NCBI GenBank assembly: GCA_903869825.1 | Contig: CAIQAL010000016.1 | Span: 1-34,268 of the forward strand | Source: an uncultured bacterium | Lineage (GTDB): Bacteria > Patescibacteriota > Minisyncoccia > Phycocordibacterales > UBA9973 | Direction: 5' to 3' | Length of the DNA: 34,268 nt | In this document: positions 126-34,103 of the stretch, piece after piece | Layout of the letters: each line of letters opens with the position of its first letter | Position numbering within the stretch: the stretch's first letter is position 1 | The notes under the pieces: generated by a model | Told to the model about the DNA's origin: nothing | Databases searched by the model: none | Seen by the model: the letters and a program-made list of their open reading frames with translations, nothing else | Translations under genes and position numbers: made by a program

Positions 126-635
126 ATGGAAGATAATATTAATTATACATTCAAAAAAATATACGCTTTACATTCGGATGGAATATTCCGATTTTGTTTG
201 GTTCGAGTATCAAACCGGGAACAAGCACTGGACATAACCCAAGAAACTTTCTTGCGTTTGTGGCAAACATTGCTTGAAGAAACAGAACTAAAAAACAATC
301 GCGCATTTTTGTTTACTGTTGCCCATCATTTGATCATTGATTATTATCGAAAAAAGAAATCACTATCGCTCGACAAAATGTTGGGTGATGACAATACTTC
401 TTTTGACCTCCCGGATGAAAAAGGAAATGTGGAATTTGGGGCCGAAGGAAGATTTGTCTTGAATAAAATCAATTCCCTGTCCCCTACCTACCGTGAACCT
501 GTCTATTTGCGTTTTGTGGAAGATTTGTCCCCAGAAGAAATAGGCAAGATATTGGATATTTCTGCCAACGCTGCTTCAGTCCGAATAAACCGCGGTTTAG
601 AAGAACTAAGAAAAAATACGGGTTATAATACATAA
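126..635 (+). CDS. RNA polymerase sigma factor, sigma-70/ECF family
   Basis: 169 aa; region 2 pattern (FRFCLVRVSNREQALDITQETFLRLWQ) and region 4 HTH (LSPTYREPVYLRFVEDLSPEEIGKILDISANAASVRINRGLEELRK). Confidence 0.92.
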   Translation: MEDNINYTFKKIYALHSDGIFRFCLVRVSNREQALDITQETFLRLWQTLLEETELKNNRAFLFTVAHHLIIDYYRKKKSLSLDKMLGDDNTSFDLPDEKGNVEFGAEGRFVLNKINSLSPTYREPVYLRFVEDLSPEEIGKILDISANAASVRINRGLEELRKNTGYNT

Positions 636-7555: not shown

Positions 7556-9562
7556 TTAGGCCTGAATGTTTGCAGGCAAAGTTCGGAAGCTTTGAGTAGG
7601 AACAAGGTCTTGATTTGCTCCAGTAGTTATTGCACTAGTGGTGTAAGTTCGAACCTTGGTCAAGCGAACATGGTAGTAACCTGCTGCTGCGGTTCCTTTT
7701 GTCAAGGTAACTGAAACAGTAAAGTGTTTAGCACTATCACTATTTAGCAAGTAACCTGAACCAACAGTTGAAGCATCAGATGTTGACAAGGCTGCACTGG
7801 AAACTCCAGTAGCGATTGAGACATTTGATGAATCTTCAATAACATATTCGAAGGCTGCGCCGTCAGCTGCTGTAAGCAATGAAGTTGTACCAGTATAAAG
7901 ATCACTTCCGAATGAAGTAACAGTAACTGGAATGTTCCAAGTTGCAGTAGTTACTAGACCTCCTGTATTGGAAGTGGTAGTAGGAGCAGCTTGAGTCATA
8001 GCTACGTTAACACCAGATGCACGCAAGGTCATGATATTTCCAATAGCCGAACCAACTCGGTATGAGCTAGTTGTAGGTAGTTGATCACCATTGACATCTT
8101 GTACACTGAAATATGCTGGAGCTGCGAAATCAGCATAAGTAAGGGATGTTGTAAGAGTTTCTCCATCAGCATACACTCCTGTGCTTTCTGCTTTAAGATC
8201 AGCCTTTACTACAAATTCTGCAGTTGTTCCTGCCGGAATTACGTTGTAAGGAGATGCCAAATTGTCAAAGGTGTATCTGTATGTAGGTGATACTATTCCA
8301 CCAACACCAGTAACGCCAGATGAACCATCAACTGATTGCATCACATTTGTTCCACTGTACAAGTACAATGTATTGATGATGTTACCAATTGCAGCTGTTC
8401 CTTTTGTAATTTGAATAGGAACTTTTCTAAGAGTTAAATCAGAGTTTGTAGCTTTAACTGTAAATCTTAGTAATTCTACTCCATTAGTTGCAGAAGTAGA
8501 ACTTACTGCTAGGGTAGATGCAGCTGGATTAGTTGAAGAAATACCAACTGTAGCTTTTACGCCATTAGCTGAGAATTTTCCAAATTGTAATCCTGTCTGA
8601 GCAATTGGACTTCCTGGGTAAGTGTCATATGAACCATCTGGTGATGTTGCACTGATTCCTCCAGCGACAAATGAAACTGTCCAATTTGCGGCTGAGTTTC
8701 CAGTATCAATTGAACTGGCTACATCAACAGTAACATAGAAACGACCGATTTGGTCTTTTGCAATTACTGAATTTAAACCTGCAAAGTTGAAAGTGTACAA
8801 ATCAGTTGAAGTATTGCGGTCAGCCATTGATACTGGCATGGTTGCAAGTTTGGTTGAACCTAGCCATAGAGTAGCGCCGGTAATATACTTTGAAAGATTT
8901 GTTGAAGAACCTGTTGTGTCAGCATTTAAGAAAGTGACACGAACGCGATTAACTGTCTGATCAGCTAGTCTGGCGGTCAAACGAATACCAGCAACTACTT
9001 GATCGGTTTCTGATTCATAAGCTGTTGAAACACGACCTGTTGAATCTAGATTTTCGTCAGCTAAGTATCCGTTAGTTCCAGTACTTGCAGGTGTTCCAGT
9101 TCCAAGTGCGCATGCTGCGAAAGTTGGAGCAACTGGAGTTACTGCGACATATCCGGCTGGACATGAACCTTGAGCTGGAGTTGCAACTACGCATGCTGCG
9201 AAAGTTGGAGCAACTGGAGTTGTGGAAACATATCCTGCTGGACAATTTCCGGTTACTGCTACTGCAGTTCCGTTGATAGCAGCTCGGGTCATAGGACCAA
9301 CAACGCCATCAGCTGTTAATGCAGGAACTTGACTTGCTTGAAAAGCCATAACTTTAGCTTTTGTGATTGAGCCAAAATATCCGGTTGCTGGAGTTACTCC
9401 AAGCTTTGCTTGAAGACATGAAACATCAGCATTTCTCATTCCTTGTTTCAAGGTCATTGTAAGTGTGCAAGTATTGTCGGCTTTCGCAAATGAAACGCCA
9501 ACGAGTACCATAGCAACAACCACAAATCCAAGAATGAATTTTGATTTTAATAAATTACTCAT
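7556..9562 (-). CDS. Secreted S-layer-like protein with N-terminal peptidoglycan-binding domain
   Basis: 668 aa; signal peptide (FILGFVVVAMVLVGVSFAKA), PG_binding_1-like LKQGMRNADVSCLQAKLGV...TADGVVGPMTRAAING, then Thr/Ser-rich beta-type extracellular repeats. Confidence 0.75.
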   Translation of the reverse strand: MSNLLKSKFILGFVVVAMVLVGVSFAKADNTCTLTMTLKQGMRNADVSCLQAKLGVTPATGYFGSITKAKVMAFQASQVPALTADGVVGPMTRAAINGTAVAVTGNCPAGYVSTTPVAPTFAACVVATPAQGSCPAGYVAVTPVAPTFAACALGTGTPASTGTNGYLADENLDSTGRVSTAYESETDQVVAGIRLTARLADQTVNRVRVTFLNADTTGSSTNLSKYITGATLWLGSTKLATMPVSMADRNTSTDLYTFNFAGLNSVIAKDQIGRFYVTVDVASSIDTGNSAANWTVSFVAGGISATSPDGSYDTYPGSPIAQTGLQFGKFSANGVKATVGISSTNPAASTLAVSSTSATNGVELLRFTVKATNSDLTLRKVPIQITKGTAAIGNIINTLYLYSGTNVMQSVDGSSGVTGVGGIVSPTYRYTFDNLASPYNVIPAGTTAEFVVKADLKAESTGVYADGETLTTSLTYADFAAPAYFSVQDVNGDQLPTTSSYRVGSAIGNIMTLRASGVNVAMTQAAPTTTSNTGGLVTTATWNIPVTVTSFGSDLYTGTTSLLTAADGAAFEYVIEDSSNVSIATGVSSAALSTSDASTVGSGYLLNSDSAKHFTVSVTLTKGTAAAGYYHVRLTKVRTYTTSAITTGANQDLVPTQSFRTLPANIQA
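9109..9250 (-). repeat. Tandem 81-bp duplication encoding Cys-containing repeat
   Basis: CGCATGCTGCGAAAGTTGGAGCAACTGGAGTT occurs at 9109 and 9190 (offset 81 bp = 27 aa); protein CPAGYVSTTPVAPTFAAC / CPAGYVAVTPVAPTFAAC. Confidence 0.9.
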
Positions 9563-9835: not shown

Positions 9836-10097
9836 GACCTAGCCAATTTTCCTTCAAGATTTTTTCGACGAAATCGTGAACGAAAATGAACGCGGTTTTA
9901 TGCCTGTGATGCAAGTAAAGCATCTACCTCTCGATAGACACCTAACTCTCCCACAAACATAATATCATTATAATATAGAGTCGTAAAATACGGCAATATA
10001 TTATGTGGATAACCTCATATCTATCCAATAGATACGACGTATCACATATAGGATTATTACATATAATTGAGTAAAAAGCAACCTGAGAATACGGTCT

Positions 10098-10985
10098 TTA
10101 TTTTAGAGAGTACTTGCTCCATCTTTTCTCTCCTTTTTTCTTAAGGACACCATCTCGGACCATCGCCACGAGTTCCCGCTGGAGAGTCTTTTCTCCTGTC
10201 TCTTTACCCTTACTTTGGAGAGCCAAAGCTATGTCCTTTATACTTGCTCCATCAAAATTTATTGAGCTATTTTTTTTGTCCTTTATGGTTGAAAGTATCT
10301 CTTCTCGTCTGTGGTTTTTTGTCCCTTCGTTAATATGGGAGATTGAAGTTGCTGGCTTTGTCCGTGATAGATCTGACACCCTATCGGACAAAACTTTTCC
10401 CTCGACTTTGCTCAGGGCATGCAATAATGTTCCGCCTTTCTGAACACCGATTCGAGTACTTGATTGTCCTTTAGAAAAACTTCTTCCAGGAAGATTTCCT
10501 CCTAAAAAAGTCATCAAACTTCTTCCATTGTTGTCTCTCGCTAAACCTTCTTCTTCTGTCAATAATCCAGTAAGCCATTTGGGATCATTCTCCGGTACTT
10601 GTGGAGTAGATTCAATCACAGATTTCTTTAATTCAAAAAACTCATTTTTTAAAATGCTGGAGTTCATCTGTGAGATTAGTCCTATCCCAGATGCAATTTC
10701 TAAAAAGGACAAAACTTCACTAACGCAGGCTTCTACTTTGTGATAGATAGCATTTGTCCGATAGGACAAGCGTCCAATGTCCGAGATGATTTCCACTCCC
10801 AAGGCTCGAAGTTTGTTGCGGAGAGGTTCTTCTTTGTCCATTATGTCCGTTACCATATACAAGGCAGTTATAAGCTTGTTCGTCTTACTGTAAGACAGAA
10901 AGACAGCTCCTCGAACCTCTTCAGAAGAGACAGACAAATTTGTGTCTTTTACTTCGTTTCCCTGACTTTTAGTTTCACCCAACAT
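10098..10985 (-). CDS. Hypothetical protein with C-terminal winged-helix-like region, probable DNA-binding regulator
   Basis: C-terminus RREEILSTIKDKKNSSINFDGASIKDIALALQSKGKETGEKTLQRELVAMVRDGVLKKKGEKRWSKYSLK reads as a wHTH; start placed at MLGETK (10985) because the upstream ATG overlaps the -10 box. Confidence 0.65.
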   Translation of the reverse strand: MLGETKSQGNEVKDTNLSVSSEEVRGAVFLSYSKTNKLITALYMVTDIMDKEEPLRNKLRALGVEIISDIGRLSYRTNAIYHKVEACVSEVLSFLEIASGIGLISQMNSSILKNEFFELKKSVIESTPQVPENDPKWLTGLLTEEEGLARDNNGRSLMTFLGGNLPGRSFSKGQSSTRIGVQKGGTLLHALSKVEGKVLSDRVSDLSRTKPATSISHINEGTKNHRREEILSTIKDKKNSSINFDGASIKDIALALQSKGKETGEKTLQRELVAMVRDGVLKKKGEKRWSKYSLK

Positions 10986-10992
10986 GCTGTCC

Positions 10993-11020
10993 ATTATATA
11001 TAAAAGACATAGCATGTCAA
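10993..11020 (-). promoter_or_regulatory. Near-consensus sigma-70 promoter, leaderless
   Basis: Minus strand TTGACA (11020-11015) -16 nt- TATAAT (10998-10993) -7 nt- ATG (10985). Confidence 0.85.
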
Positions 11021-11175
11021 CAGATAAAAGGACAGAAATAACAAAAAAGAGGTATTGTTTTTAGGGAGTTTCAAAGCTGACGAACCGAGAACTTAAGAAT
11101 TTTTTAAGTTTAAAAAAATTCGTACTCTAGAGAGTAACACCTTTTTTTTATTAAAAAAAAATTTCATTTTTATGT

Positions 11176-11187: not shown

Positions 11188-13392
11188 ATGGCAAAAAACG
11201 AAAAGAATCAAACTAAAAAAAATAAAAGTAATGGAAAATCTTCCGGTGGAAGTAAATTAAAAACAGAAACAAAACATGGAATTCTAGCAGTAATATTTTT
11301 TGTTTTAGCTCTCTTTCTTTTGATGGCCTACTTCGACATCGCTGGCCCAGCCGGAAAAATGTTTAAAGATTTTTTTTCTTATATGCTGGGAATTGGCTAT
11401 ATCTTATTACCGATTCTTTTTGTTTTAATCGGATCATCTTTTGTAAAATCGGAACGACCAAATATCGGATTTACCCGCACGATCAGTTCCTTTCTTTTTT
11501 TGCTCTCAAGTTTGGGAATAATCAACATCGCTTCAAACAACTCCGGTGGATTTTTAGGAAAAATTTTATCTATCCCATTCGTGTATCTTTTTGATCTCTA
11601 CGCCAGTGTTATTTTCCTCGGAGCAATTTTAATAATTTCTATTTTAGTGATGTTTGATGCCAAGCCGGCTCTCATTCCATTCTTCACAAAACTTTGGGCA
11701 ATGCTTCGAAAAAAACCTGCCCAAGATCAAGAAGAGGAAGAAGTAGAAACAACAGAAGAAATCCCGGAAGCGATTGAGGAAAATAAAGAGAAAAAAGAAA
11801 GCACGGGAGATAAAATAAAGAAAGCCTTGGGAGTAAATAAAAAAGAAGAAGTTAGTGAAGAGGAAGAAGAAATTCCAATCAAAAAAAGACGCGGCGGTCT
11901 TGTTTCCGACTACATCCCTCCTCCGCTTTCTCTCCTTGAAGAAGATCAGGGGAAACCAAACACAGGAGACATCAAAGCAAACGCAAATATTATTAAAAGA
12001 ACTTTGGCCAACTTTGGAATAGAAGTTGAGATGGATGAAATAACCATCGGACCAACCGTCACCCGTTACGCTCTCAAGCCAGCGGAAGGAATGAAACTTT
12101 CTCGGATCGTTGGACTGCAAAATGATTTGTCCCTTGCGCTCGCTGCCCACCCGATCCGAATCGAAGCCCCTATCCCAGGAAAATCTTTGGTCGGAATCGA
12201 AATTCCGAATAAATCAAAATCAATCGTTGGGCTCGCCACAATGCTCTCCGATGAAAAGTTTAGTCATTCAACAAAAGTTCTCACCATCGCTCTTGGCCGA
12301 GGAATTTCCGGAAAAGCGATGTTCGGAAATTTGGCGAAGATGCCTCACTGTTTGGTCGCCGGAACAACCGGTTCCGGAAAATCTGTCACCATCCACTCGA
12401 TGATCACTTCCCTCTTGTATCGGAACGGTCCGGATGATTTAAAGTTTATTTTGATTGATCCAAAGCGAGTGGAGCTCACGATGTACAACAAAATCCCTCA
12501 TTTGCTTACTCCGGTAATTACCGACGCCAAAAAAACAATCCTGGCCTTGAAATGGGCCGCGAAGGAAATGGACCGTCGCTACGATATTTTAGAAGCGGAA
12601 TCCCTGCAGAACGTCGAGTCTTACCACACGAACGTACTCGGAAAAACCCCAAAGAGAACCAAGAAAGCGGAAGATGGAGCCGAAACGGAAGTATCTGTCG
12701 ACCGAATGCCTTATATTGTGATCGTTATTGACGAACTTGCCGATATTATGAGTACTTACCCACGAGAACTTGAGTCTGCTATTGTTCGACTCGCTCAAAT
12801 GTCTAGAGCAGTTGGTATCCACTTGGTTCTTTCAACTCAGCGGCCGGAAGTAAATGTTATTACCGGGCTCATTAAAGCAAATATCCCAGCCAGAATTGCT
12901 CTTAAGGTGTCTTCTCAAATCGACTCCCGAACAATCCTTGACGCCGGTGGGGCGGAAAAGCTGCTTGGCGCTGGAGATATGCTTTATTCTTCAGGCGACG
13001 CTCAGCCGGAGCGATTGCAGTCTGCTTACGTTTCAGAAACAGAAGTGAAGAAGGTGGTAAAATATTTAGCTGATACTTACCGAGATGAAGTTATGGAAGA
13101 AATATCCCTTTCAAGTGGCTCCATCTCCGCCGATAAAAGTATTTTTGAAAGTACTCTCGATGGTGATGAAGAGGACGATGAATTGTATGAAGACGCCAGA
13201 CAATGTGTCATTGAGGCCGGAAAAGCTTCCACTTCCTACTTGCAAAGAAAACTAAAGTTGGGTTATGCCCGAGCCGCTCGACTGATGGATATCTTAGAAG
13301 AACGTGGAGTAATCGGCCCCGGAGACGGAGCAAAGCCGAGAGAAGTCTTGGAAAAGATCAACCGAACGGAAACTGGTGAAAATATCTTATGA
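11188..13392 (+). CDS. ftsK: DNA translocase FtsK/SpoIIIE
   Basis: N-terminal TM helices, Walker A (VAGTTGSGKSVTIHSMI), Walker B (YIVIVIDELADIM), C-terminal gamma-like winged helix (STSYLQRKLKLGYARAARLMDILEERGVIGPGDGAKPREVL). Confidence 0.97.
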   Translation: MAKNEKNQTKKNKSNGKSSGGSKLKTETKHGILAVIFFVLALFLLMAYFDIAGPAGKMFKDFFSYMLGIGYILLPILFVLIGSSFVKSERPNIGFTRTISSFLFLLSSLGIINIASNNSGGFLGKILSIPFVYLFDLYASVIFLGAILIISILVMFDAKPALIPFFTKLWAMLRKKPAQDQEEEEVETTEEIPEAIEENKEKKESTGDKIKKALGVNKKEEVSEEEEEIPIKKRRGGLVSDYIPPPLSLLEEDQGKPNTGDIKANANIIKRTLANFGIEVEMDEITIGPTVTRYALKPAEGMKLSRIVGLQNDLSLALAAHPIRIEAPIPGKSLVGIEIPNKSKSIVGLATMLSDEKFSHSTKVLTIALGRGISGKAMFGNLAKMPHCLVAGTTGSGKSVTIHSMITSLLYRNGPDDLKFILIDPKRVELTMYNKIPHLLTPVITDAKKTILALKWAAKEMDRRYDILEAESLQNVESYHTNVLGKTPKRTKKAEDGAETEVSVDRMPYIVIVIDELADIMSTYPRELESAIVRLAQMSRAVGIHLVLSTQRPEVNVITGLIKANIPARIALKVSSQIDSRTILDAGGAEKLLGAGDMLYSSGDAQPERLQSAYVSETEVKKVVKYLADTYRDEVMEEISLSSGSISADKSIFESTLDGDEEDDELYEDARQCVIEAGKASTSYLQRKLKLGYARAARLMDILEERGVIGPGDGAKPREVLEKINRTETGENIL

Positions 13393-30641: not shown

Positions 30642-33600
30642 TTACTTTTGGATAGTTATTTTGAAAACCAAATCATTTATCTTCGTTTCTTCCCCGCTGT
30701 TTGATTCAAATTTGATATCCTTCGCTAAAACAGTTTTCTTCATTTCTGTTTTAAATTGCTCAACCAACTCTTTCCCATCCTCGCTGGTCTCAAGAATAAG
30801 AGTTATCACATCGCTCGGGGTCAACTCTCCTTTTTTACGGATATCTTGGATGGCTCGCGCAAGTTCACGGTAATTTCCTTCAGCTTTCAGTTTCGGATCA
30901 ATCTTGATATCAAGCTCGATTTCTTTTTCTAAATTGGGATTGGTCATAATAATTTTGACATTTAATTCATCTTTGATGATCGCGGTATATTCTTTTTCAA
31001 GCACGTATTCTTTAAAGGTCAAAATACCAAGGGGCTGACGAACTTTAATCCCCGCTTTCTGTCTTGCTTCAAGTCCTAAGGAAACGATTCTGCGAACTTC
31101 TTCCATTTTTTCTACCACTTCCCTGTTTCGGGTATCAAACTCTGGCCATTCTACAAAATGGATACTCTCGGAATCATTGTCATTTTTTAACTTCAGCCAA
31201 ATATCTTCCGCAGTAAACGGAGCAAATGGTGCCATTATTTTTACCAGAGTCTTCAAGACAAAATACAAAGTTTGTTTTGCTTCTTTGTCACCATCTTTGA
31301 TTCTGTCTCGCGAACGCCGTAAATACCAGGTGGACAAGTCTCCGATAAAATCTTTGATTGCCCGAGTTGGTTCCAACAATTTATAATTGTCCAGATTCTC
31401 TACCGTAAGAACATTTAGTTCATCAAGTCGAGCAATAATCCAAGCGTCCAAAATATTTTTGGATTTTTTGTATTCTAATTTTTCCAATTCTTGGTCCCGA
31501 TAAAGCTCATAGAACGCAAGTACGTTATAAAGCAAGCCGAAATATTGACGATGAAGTTCAAGCACTGTTTTCTCATCAAAGTTTTTTGACTCACCTGGTT
31601 GGTTGACCGAATACATCCAAAGCCGAAGTGTATCCACTCCATATTTATCCATCATGCTCCAGGGGTCCACGACATTTCCGACAGATTTAGACATTTTTTT
31701 ACCGGCGGCATCCAAAAGAAGTCCTAGGCAAATAACATTTTTATATGCTTTCCCTTTGCCCATCAAAACTCCCACCGCATGTAAGGTGTAGAACCAACCA
31801 CGAGTTTGATCGATCGCCTCGGAAATAAAGTCCGCCGGATAGGCTAAATCTTTATTTTCAAATGGGTAGTGGTCTTGCGAAAAAGGCATCGTTCCTGAGT
31901 CGAGCCAGACATCCATCACTTCTTTGGTTCGAACAAGACTTCCCCCGCAAGCTTGCCCCGCCGTGGCGTGGGTGCAAACAAGTTTCACTTCATCAATGTA
32001 TGGCTTGTGCAAATCAAGTTCGTAGTTTTCATTATGAGGAAGCGGAATAAAATTCAATTCTTTCATTTCGGCATTTTCGAAAGATATTTTATTGTTTTCC
32101 AATTGTTGTGCTGTCTCTAAATCATTTAATCCCTCTGCCCCCAAGAAAAGCACTTTGGCAGGACCTTCGTGCGTGACAACTAGAATTTTTTTATTTTTAT
32201 ATTTTTTTTCAAGGTCATAAAGAAAACTAGTCATTCTGAACTTCATATCTTTACAGGATTCTCCTTTTTCAGGTTTGAAATCATACCAATCTTTTTCATT
32301 ACGGAGAGCAAAATACTCTTTCCAAGTTTCTCCATCGAAAACACCAGTGCACAATTCACGAATTCTTTCATCTAAAACATAATTTTCATCAGAGATTCCG
32401 AGATCTTTTTTTATTATCTCGGCAGTTTCTTTTGTTCTCATAAAATCCGACGCGATAATCAAATCTATTTTTTTATCTTTAAGGACACTCAACGTAGCCA
32501 AAACTTCTTTCTTTCCTTTTTCCGTCAAGTGATCAACATCGCCAACTATTGAACTTATTTTCCCTTTTAGATTGCTGTCCGTTTCTCCGTGCCGGATTAC
32601 AAAATACTGATTACCGGATTTTTTTGTTTTAGCTTTTAAATCTTCCACGCTCCCAACCACTTCCACTTTTTTACATTTCTCGCATGTCCAAACTGGAAGT
32701 GGACTTCCCCAATACCTTTCTCTTGAAATTGCCCAATCTTTTATTTCACGCAACCATTCTCCAAAACGCCCATCTTTGATGTAGTCCGGTTCCCAATTTA
32801 TTTCTTTATTTTCGGCAATCATCCCCGCTTTTATTTTTGGATCGGACATCCTGATATACCAAGAATCTCGCGCATAATAAATAAGCGCCGTATGACAACG
32901 CCAACAATGCGGATATGAGTGCTCATATTTTTCTTTTTTAAGTAATAAACCCCGGTGCGCTAAATTTTTAATAATATCTACTGCCACGGCTTCGTCTCTG
33001 ACAAATCTACCTTCCAAAAAATCGGTACCGGGTAGAAACTTCCCGTCGAGTCCTACCAAGTGATGCTTCGGTAAACCAATTTCAGTTCCTAATACAAAGT
33101 CATCTTGACCATACATCACCGCGGTGTGTACCACTCCGGTGCCGTCTTCTGTTGTCACAAAATTCGCTGGATAAACCTTAAAAGCTTTTTCCATTTTCCC
33201 CTTTTCGCTTTCAAAAATTGTATTTTGTAAATATGGATACAATGTTTCATATTCAATTCCGAGTAAATCTTTGCCTTTTAATTCTTCCAAAATTTTGTAT
33301 TCTCCTTCAATGGTGACAAGTCTCGCTTTAGCTAAAACGAAAATTTCGTTCTCCTTTTCTATTTTTACATATTCAATATCCTTCCCAACAGCAAGCGCCA
33401 CGTTCCCAGGCAAAGTCCAAGGAGTAGTAGTCCACGCCAATATATATGTATTATTTTGTCCTTTCACTTTAAATTTCACATACACCGACAAATCTTTTAC
33501 ATTTTCATACCCTTGGGCAAGTTCATGCGAAGAGAGCCCAGTGCCACACCTGGGACACCAAGGCACCACTTTGTAATCCTTATAGAGCAACCCCTGTTTA

Positions 33601-34103
33601 TTGGTTTCCTTTATTACATTCCAAACCGATTCAATGTAATCATTGTGGTAAGTGACATACGGATTTTTTTGATCCACCCAAAAACCAATCCGCTCAGTAA
33701 ATTTCTTCCACAAGTCCACATAGATCCAAACGCTTTCTTTGCACTTTTGATTGAAATTCGCAACGCCATATTCCTCAATTTCTTTTTTTGATTTTAGCCC
33801 GAGTTCTTTTTCTACTTGGAGCTCCACTGGGAGTCCATGAGTATCCCAGCCACCCTTCCGGCGCACATGATATCCCCGCATTGTTTTGTAACGAGGAATA
33901 ACATCCTTAAAAGCTCGGGCTTCCAAGTGGTGAATACCGGGTTTGCCATTCGCGGTTGGCGGACCTTCGTAAAAAGTAAACTCGCCCTTTGGTGCTTCTT
34001 TTTCCAAAGATTTCTCGAAAATTTTATTTTCTTTCCAAAATTCAAGAATTTTTTCTTCTCGTAAAGCCGATTCGCGTTTGTTTTTTGTTTCTTCTTTTTC
34101 CAT
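30642..34103 (-). CDS. ileS: Isoleucyl-tRNA synthetase with inserted histidine-phosphatase domain
   Basis: GPPTANGKPGIHHL (HIGH-like), GWDTHGLPVE, TTPWTLPGN, DQTRGWFYTLHAVGV, KKMSKSVGNVVDP; internal QYFVIRHGETDSN...SDFMRTKETAEII...LVVTHEG at about residues 491-695. Confidence 0.97.
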   Translation of the reverse strand: MEKEETKNKRESALREEKILEFWKENKIFEKSLEKEAPKGEFTFYEGPPTANGKPGIHHLEARAFKDVIPRYKTMRGYHVRRKGGWDTHGLPVELQVEKELGLKSKKEIEEYGVANFNQKCKESVWIYVDLWKKFTERIGFWVDQKNPYVTYHNDYIESVWNVIKETNKQGLLYKDYKVVPWCPRCGTGLSSHELAQGYENVKDLSVYVKFKVKGQNNTYILAWTTTPWTLPGNVALAVGKDIEYVKIEKENEIFVLAKARLVTIEGEYKILEELKGKDLLGIEYETLYPYLQNTIFESEKGKMEKAFKVYPANFVTTEDGTGVVHTAVMYGQDDFVLGTEIGLPKHHLVGLDGKFLPGTDFLEGRFVRDEAVAVDIIKNLAHRGLLLKKEKYEHSYPHCWRCHTALIYYARDSWYIRMSDPKIKAGMIAENKEINWEPDYIKDGRFGEWLREIKDWAISRERYWGSPLPVWTCEKCKKVEVVGSVEDLKAKTKKSGNQYFVIRHGETDSNLKGKISSIVGDVDHLTEKGKKEVLATLSVLKDKKIDLIIASDFMRTKETAEIIKKDLGISDENYVLDERIRELCTGVFDGETWKEYFALRNEKDWYDFKPEKGESCKDMKFRMTSFLYDLEKKYKNKKILVVTHEGPAKVLFLGAEGLNDLETAQQLENNKISFENAEMKELNFIPLPHNENYELDLHKPYIDEVKLVCTHATAGQACGGSLVRTKEVMDVWLDSGTMPFSQDHYPFENKDLAYPADFISEAIDQTRGWFYTLHAVGVLMGKGKAYKNVICLGLLLDAAGKKMSKSVGNVVDPWSMMDKYGVDTLRLWMYSVNQPGESKNFDEKTVLELHRQYFGLLYNVLAFYELYRDQELEKLEYKKSKNILDAWIIARLDELNVLTVENLDNYKLLEPTRAIKDFIGDLSTWYLRRSRDRIKDGDKEAKQTLYFVLKTLVKIMAPFAPFTAEDIWLKLKNDNDSESIHFVEWPEFDTRNREVVEKMEEVRRIVSLGLEARQKAGIKVRQPLGILTFKEYVLEKEYTAIIKDELNVKIIMTNPNLEKEIELDIKIDPKLKAEGNYRELARAIQDIRKKGELTPSDVITLILETSEDGKELVEQFKTEMKKTVLAKDIKFESNSGEETKINDLVFKITIQK
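32019..32633 (-). other. Histidine phosphatase (phosphoglycerate mutase-like) domain embedded in IleRS
   Basis: RHGET catalytic motif, FMRTKET, RELCTGVFDGETW, VTHEG; lies between VWTCEKCKKVEVVGSVEDL and LDLHKPYIDEV, which are normally near each other in IleRS. Confidence 0.88.

Follow-up and report, generated by a model that had tools for sequence, protein, structure and literature searches.

Why would a protein-coding gene of an ultra-small bacterium carry many copies of one short DNA word on both strands, and which protein would recognize them? The question was raised by a stretch of DNA, here called the window, that covers positions 1 to 34,268 of contig C16 (34,268 bp, 38% GC) in the 774-kb draft genome G000. 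Between 10145 and 11034, the words TGTCC and GGACA were found 15 times, at every position listed in the original prediction, vs 1.4 expected from the rest of the window, in agreement with the one or two estimated beforehand. Counted in 1-kb bins, the array bin held 14 words and the best other bin of the window five; the density elsewhere was about 1.1 per kb. The coding sequence alone contained 14 words, compared with 3.2 ± 1.4 in 20,000 shuffles of its synonymous codons (shuffle maximum 10, P ≤ 5e-5).

A motif model was built from 29 orthologues, with at least 12.5 bits taken as a strong match, and all 11 of the 11 strong matches in the 34-kb window fell within the gene and its promoter (10137–11000). 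Because the window gene is among the 29 sequences of the model, counts in orthologues are the cleaner test. The consensus across the family is T[AC]T[AT]A[AC]GGACA on both strands, with GGACA as the most conserved core; the TTTGTCC(T/G)(T/A)TA originally described is its reverse complement. The 13-mer reported in both orientations and the inverted repeat TTGTCC-GATA-GGACAA were also correct. Spacings between the sites, which are given below with their scores in the motif model, are periodic near 11 bp.

10844–10856, minus strand: array site ATGGTAACGGACA, 13.0 bits
10835–10847, minus strand: array site GACATAATGGACA, 13.0 bits
10778–10790, minus strand: array site ATCATCTCGGACA, 11.3 bits
10754–10769, no strand assigned: array inverted repeat TTGTCCGATAGGACAA, minus-strand site 13.0 bits
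10699–10711, plus strand: array site TCTAAAAAGGACA, 15.0 bits
10465–10477, minus strand: array site TTTCTAAAGGACA, near-perfect consensus, 17.4 of 17.5 bits
10378–10390, plus strand: array site ACCCTATCGGACA, 12.8 bits
10359–10371, minus strand: array site TCTATCACGGACA, 13.9 bits
10320–10324, plus strand: core word TGTCC alone with weak flanks, from the word count
10277–10289, minus strand: array site ACCATAAAGGACA, 15.7 bits
10232–10244, minus strand: array site AGTATAAAGGACA, 15.7 bits
10137–10149, plus strand: array site TTTCTTAAGGACA, 15.4 bits

Conservation of the array spans the order and reaches outside it. A single-sequence search found the encoded protein in 132 of 148 genomes of the order, apparently as a single copy (two partial matches per genome usually represent one gene), and a profile search of a class-wide sample of 238 genomes detected it in 146, some of these matches being weak. 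Relatives with the protein include Candidatus Nomurabacteria and the Kaiser-, Zambryski-, Taylor-, Yonath-, Lloyd-, Wolfe-, Vogel- and Campbellbacteria. The coding sequences of 80 orthologues (69.6 kb) contained 746 words vs 254 after synonymous codon shuffling, and the extended motif 333 times vs 41; since the genomes are related, such counts are not independent, and the genomes are mostly drafts in which some orthologue start codons were guessed. Words per kb amounted to 10.7 in the coding sequences, 5.2 in the upstream 300 bp, 1.0 downstream and 1.1 in the flanks. The original impression of near-background neighbours holds at these loci: 822 kb of neighbouring open reading frames contained the extended motif 16 times and the words without excess (893 vs 965). 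Neither an equal density elsewhere, nor shuffled genes with matching counts, nor orthologues lacking the motif were found. One record with 46% identity and a full array is titled Burkholderiales (L107); it holds a Patescibacteria gene and is probably a mislabelled genome bin.

Selection on the DNA itself, which had been suspected from the different peptides encoded by the motif, is further indicated by the registers of the sites, as five of the six combinations of frame and strand are well used and the avoided one would encode Cys-Pro. Two congeners at 87% identity have only 8 of 15 sites in common; thus, individual sites turn over while the array and its density persist. The sites probably explain why KG[QH] and KD[ITN] abound in the variable linker of the protein. 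The array is a clear case of DNA-level selection shaping a protein-coding sequence.

The surroundings of the gene, including its promoter, are as follows.

11188–13392, plus strand: ftsK (Pfam), divergent, sharing the intergenic region with the gene
11022–11034, plus strand: weak motif site just upstream of the -35 element, 10.1 bits
11015–11020, minus strand: -35 element TTGACA, part of a 12/12 sigma-70 match with a 16-bp spacer
10988–11009, no strand assigned: candidate self-operator over the -10 element, TGTCT-TTTATATATAAT-GGACA, from promoter comparison with orthologues
10993–10998, minus strand: -10 element TATAAT of the same 12/12 promoter
10098–10985, minus strand: gene for a four-helix-bundle/linker/winged-helix protein (open reading frame and structure model; in 132 of 148 genomes)
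10004–10012, minus strand: DnaA box TTATCCACA, downstream of the gene, upstream of and adjoining the -35 element of the next promoter

The open reading frame opens at 11015, and the geometry of the promoter points to ATG at 10985 as the probable start of a leaderless message. In the window, TATAAT is followed by GGACA (10992–10988) and then by the ATG. GGACA directly follows TATAAT in 22 of 39 orthologue promoters (those scoring at least 10/12), and in many orthologues a TGTCC starting 9–11 bp before the -10 element completes an inverted repeat over it; the left half is imperfect in the window (TGTCT) and is TGTCC in many orthologues. Often, about 6 nt separate the end of the -10 element from the ATG, which makes a leaderless transcript probable, and since the inverted repeat overlaps the -10 element just before the start, it looks like an operator for self-repression. 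The layout looks like the anatomy of a self-repressor, and the autoregulatory operator array that had been proposed is well supported by the conserved position at which the motif overlaps the gene's own -10 element.

Around the gene, ftsK was divergent on the upstream side at 76 of the 78 orthologue loci that could be tested, and a perfect DnaA box of the same orientation lay within 450 nt of the gene's stop in 69 of 80. In the window, at 9967–10012 (minus strand), the DnaA box precedes a TTGC...TATAAT promoter that faces a surface-protein gene with a PG_binding_1 domain (7556–9562, minus strand). The conserved box upstream of that -35 element suggests that DnaA may control surface-protein expression. 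An Rfam search of the window from 9 to 12 kb gave sub-threshold matches only. Elsewhere in the window, a class I tRNA synthetase, probably isoleucyl (30642–34103, minus strand), has its catalytic domain interrupted at residues 501–669 by a histidine-phosphatase domain (His_Phos_1, E 2.3e-30), and an ECF-like sigma-70 factor with regions 2 and 4 only (126–635, plus strand) is followed by a possible membrane-anchored partner (643–1452).

The window protein has no Pfam or NCBIfam match above cut-off, and sequence-only PDB searches gave nothing useful. Its structure model (mean pLDDT 73) comprises a four-helix bundle (residues 31–136, pLDDT above 95), a disordered linker (about 160–228) and a winged helix (230–305, about 75–93). 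Both the model and profiles bear out the winged helix-turn-helix (wHTH) that had been predicted: HTH_DeoR, tested as a BlaI/DeoR-type profile, matched 20 of 29 members (best E 8.6e-7), and the window protein's own best such match was HTH_12 (E 0.012). The bundle may share the S23/bAvd fold (PDB 2gsc, 2rld; Avd 4dwl), with a best Foldseek E-value of only 1.5e-3 and a TM-score of 0.83 to 2gsc; the 23S_rRNA_IVP profile matched 2 of 29 members, and a viral fold library gave weak Avd-like matches only. Unlike in the S23/bAvd proteins, a disordered linker joins the bundle here to a winged helix. Avd, a relative of the S23/bAvd proteins, is pentameric. The N-terminal bundle probably oligomerizes, and a flexible, multi-headed oligomer would suit half-sites scattered in both orientations.

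The motif is also found away from the gene. Of the 148 genomes of the order, 96 had close direct pairs of the motif, and 62 and 33 had inverted ones; a reversed-pattern control gave none except once. Besides the gene, the main locus is xthA-cca-yraN: some sites occupy the interval in which the 3' ends of xthA and cca converge, some fall within cca, frequently at a spacing of 24 bp, and others are found in the gap from cca to yraN. A third set of sites precedes genes, in the valS/tsaD neighbourhood, for large secreted proteins that carry peptidoglycan-binding or Ig/DUF11 domains. At seven loci (L244, L256, L258, L259, L269, L270 and L272), the valS/tsaD clusters are often 100–200 bp upstream of the likely promoter of the surface gene. 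Another family (f120) also has sites in comF beside pilM-N-O-B. In four loci of other families (L235, L237, L240 and L242), motif clusters lie in comF, and a DnaA box lies near the comF start.

Across the class, motif pairs occurred in 26 of 146 genomes with the protein vs 3 of 92 without it, a correlation confounded by phylogeny. Outside the order's own family such pairs often fall within the gene or next to it, and many genomes of other families have the protein and lack the exact pair. Motif variants at the gene and at the probable origin described below were correlated among 11 genomes too weakly to be of use (rho 0.63, P 0.04); the second position was not significant. Recognition of the motif by the encoded wHTH protein, as had been proposed, is likely, on the indirect evidence of the co-occurrence and of the wHTH domain.

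The xthA-cca-yraN locus is the probable origin of replication of the order, as DnaA boxes, parS and GC skew agree in most genomes tested. Perfect DnaA boxes had a motif site within 80 bp in 45 of 76 cases at these loci vs 6 of 152 elsewhere. The spacing is fixed, either as GGACA-N-TTATCCACA-N4-TGTCC or with TGTCC 26–27 bp before the box. An exact parS, TGTTNCACGTGNAACA, was present once each in 11 of 24 genomes; in 10 of the 11 it lies a few kb from the motif cluster on the same contig, and in G085, on another contig, it is 2.7 kb away from a motif pair. Words like parS (at most two mismatches) occur at the cca loci of G000 and G087 and are absent from 758 kb of control DNA; in G000 they accompany motif sites at 85.4–87.6 kb of C16. 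In the closed genome G002, as in G003, G109, G119 and G121, the GC skew switches at this locus or close by; in G002 and G003, dnaA is about 30 kb away. The skew is broad but compatible in G087, and broad and ambiguous in G015; the sequence of G065 is part-masked with N. In a counter-example, G036, the skew minimum is at dnaA (C2, 68–70 kb), with the motif locus at 120–129 kb and parS at the motif locus. The 50–60 kb between dnaA and the motifs with parS in this genome may reflect a move of the origin, a rearrangement or an assembly fault. Another genome (G106, a single contig, 99% complete) has the array gene and no Bac_DnaA match; its dnaA is possibly frameshifted, lost or missed. The genes yraN and comM lie near the origin locus.

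No paper on the control of replication origins in Patescibacteria was found among the open-licence papers searched, and an earlier paper places the origin at dnaA by gene proximity only (PMC12102498). The present analysis offers a testable origin for one order, together with a candidate regulator and its operator.

About ten copies of the signal lie in the coding sequence and promoter of this gene of an order of ultra-small Patescibacteria, and the same signal adjoins DnaA boxes at the likely origin; the gene product is therefore probably a regulator that represses itself and is linked to chromosome replication. From the array, its conservation, the position of the operator, the co-location with the origin and the fixed spacing from DnaA boxes, all of which were observed, we infer the following scheme. 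The words would be half-sites of the TATAAAGGACA type for the gene's own protein, whose predicted targets are TTTATAAAGGACA and the self-operator. The protein, as an oligomer, would repress its own, probably leaderless, promoter through the inverted repeat over the -10 element, and half-sites in the coding sequence would recruit more of it for deeper repression or for buffering of free protein. It would also occupy the origin region (xthA-cca-yraN, with parS) beside the DnaA boxes, where it would most likely limit or time DnaA-driven initiation, in competition or cooperation with DnaA, and it may act upstream of large surface-protein genes and perhaps ftsK. We consider it likely that a self-repressing regulator of this kind binds its own half-sites, at the origin as well as at the gene, and limits or times initiation. 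A bolder and rather doubtful version makes the protein a replication gatekeeper of the Paceibacteria, of an unnamed family, that counts chromosome copies by sitting on DnaA boxes at the origin and being titrated by its own array; the array in the coding sequence would then be duplicated a set time after initiation, and the newly located origin would be xthA-cca-yraN-parS and not dnaA.

Several other explanations share part of this evidence. The protein may regulate itself and a small regulon only, the sites at the origin merely serving cca, yraN and xthA without a role in replication. The operator over the -10 element and the motif clusters in front of surface genes and, in another family, at comF/pilM are what such a regulon would predict, but the origin sites also lie between the convergent ends of xthA and cca and within cca, not only at promoters, and they are locked to DnaA boxes at fixed spacing; we regard this as possible though doubtful. 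Rather unlikely as stated, but a refinement of the preferred reading, is that the intragenic array serves as a decoy similar to datA or crtS, whose duplication, some time after the origin has fired, lowers free protein and gates the next round. Its distance of about 70–180 kb from the origin locus wherever both are on one contig (G000, G002, G003, G087, G109, G119 and G129) and the turnover of sites at constant density would fit a sink or timer, but conserved gene order may be all that the distance reflects. Deeper repression and titration of the protein are both conceivable roles of the array and both compatible with the data.

The iteron-like array in the coding sequence and the conserved DnaA box shortly downstream would suggest that replication starts at the gene itself and that the iterons lie in the initiator gene, as in phage lambda. 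However, it is at another locus (cca) that the GC skew switches and parS is found, and the downstream box sits at the -35 element of a promoter and therefore looks transcriptional, so this idea was dropped as highly improbable. Also dropped was a ParB-independent centromere, since ParB was present in 20 of 20 genomes and parS is a separate motif at the same locus. It is still less probable that TATAAAGGACA is no repressor site and that an alternative sigma factor reads it as a -10 element with its discriminator; TATAAA is similar to a -10 box, and one such box is overlapped by the self-operator, but GGACA is the most conserved core, a fixed -35 partner is missing, and the sites occur on both strands, in inverted pairs around DnaA boxes and with periodic spacing. 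The DNA uptake or processing signal of the original prediction, a short motif on both strands with yraN and comM near the origin locus, was rejected as scarcely credible because each genome has few exact matches, which gather at a few loci and are not dispersed genome-wide. Chance, or an artefact of codons and amino acids, has a negligible probability: KD, KG and GQ residues favour the word and shuffled genes still average 3.65 per kb, but synonymous shuffles fall short three-fold for the words and eight-fold for the motif, and neighbouring genes show no such excess.

Among known systems, CtrA, Spo0A, AdpA, MtrA and HP1021 are transcription regulators that bind origins and compete or cooperate with DnaA (PMC4285127). 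As with CtrA of Caulobacter, Spo0A of Bacillus, MtrA and HP1021, the predicted sites lie beside DnaA boxes of the origin and at promoters of other genes. Unlike in these systems, the motif is different and a dense array lies inside the regulator's own coding sequence; a receiver domain of the CtrA/Spo0A/MtrA type was not found in the 29 members, which gave HTH-type and weak other matches only. The RctB and iteron initiators of plasmids and Vibrio chromosome 2 combine origin repeats, self-repression and a distal control site (PMC11711613), and by analogy RctB would be the closest parallel for this combination, as the sites predicted here recur at the origin and include an operator for self-repression in the promoter, with a possible crtS-like distal site. 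Unlike in RctB systems, DnaA boxes and dnaA are present in nearly all genomes tested, with a single main chromosome, and no Pfam, NCBIfam or PDB match to the Rep or RctB families was obtained. Phage lambda O similarly has repeats, in our case presumably recognized by the protein, inside the gene that encodes it, ori-lambda being within the O gene (PMC5043065); here the sites span the whole gene and its promoter, whereas skew and parS place the origin elsewhere. As in the chromosomal titration of DnaA in Escherichia coli (PMC12371093), a site cluster remote from the origin could serve as a buffer for a replication regulator, although these sites are not DnaA boxes and are located in the regulator's own gene. 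The ParB/parS centromere is not matched either, with a separate ParB gene in all 20 of those genomes and separate parS sites. Because defining features tested for CtrA, Spo0A, RctB and lambda O were not found in it, the protein is not placed in any of these families; on the best reading, which draws on analogy, it would work like CtrA, Spo0A or RctB while standing outside their families.
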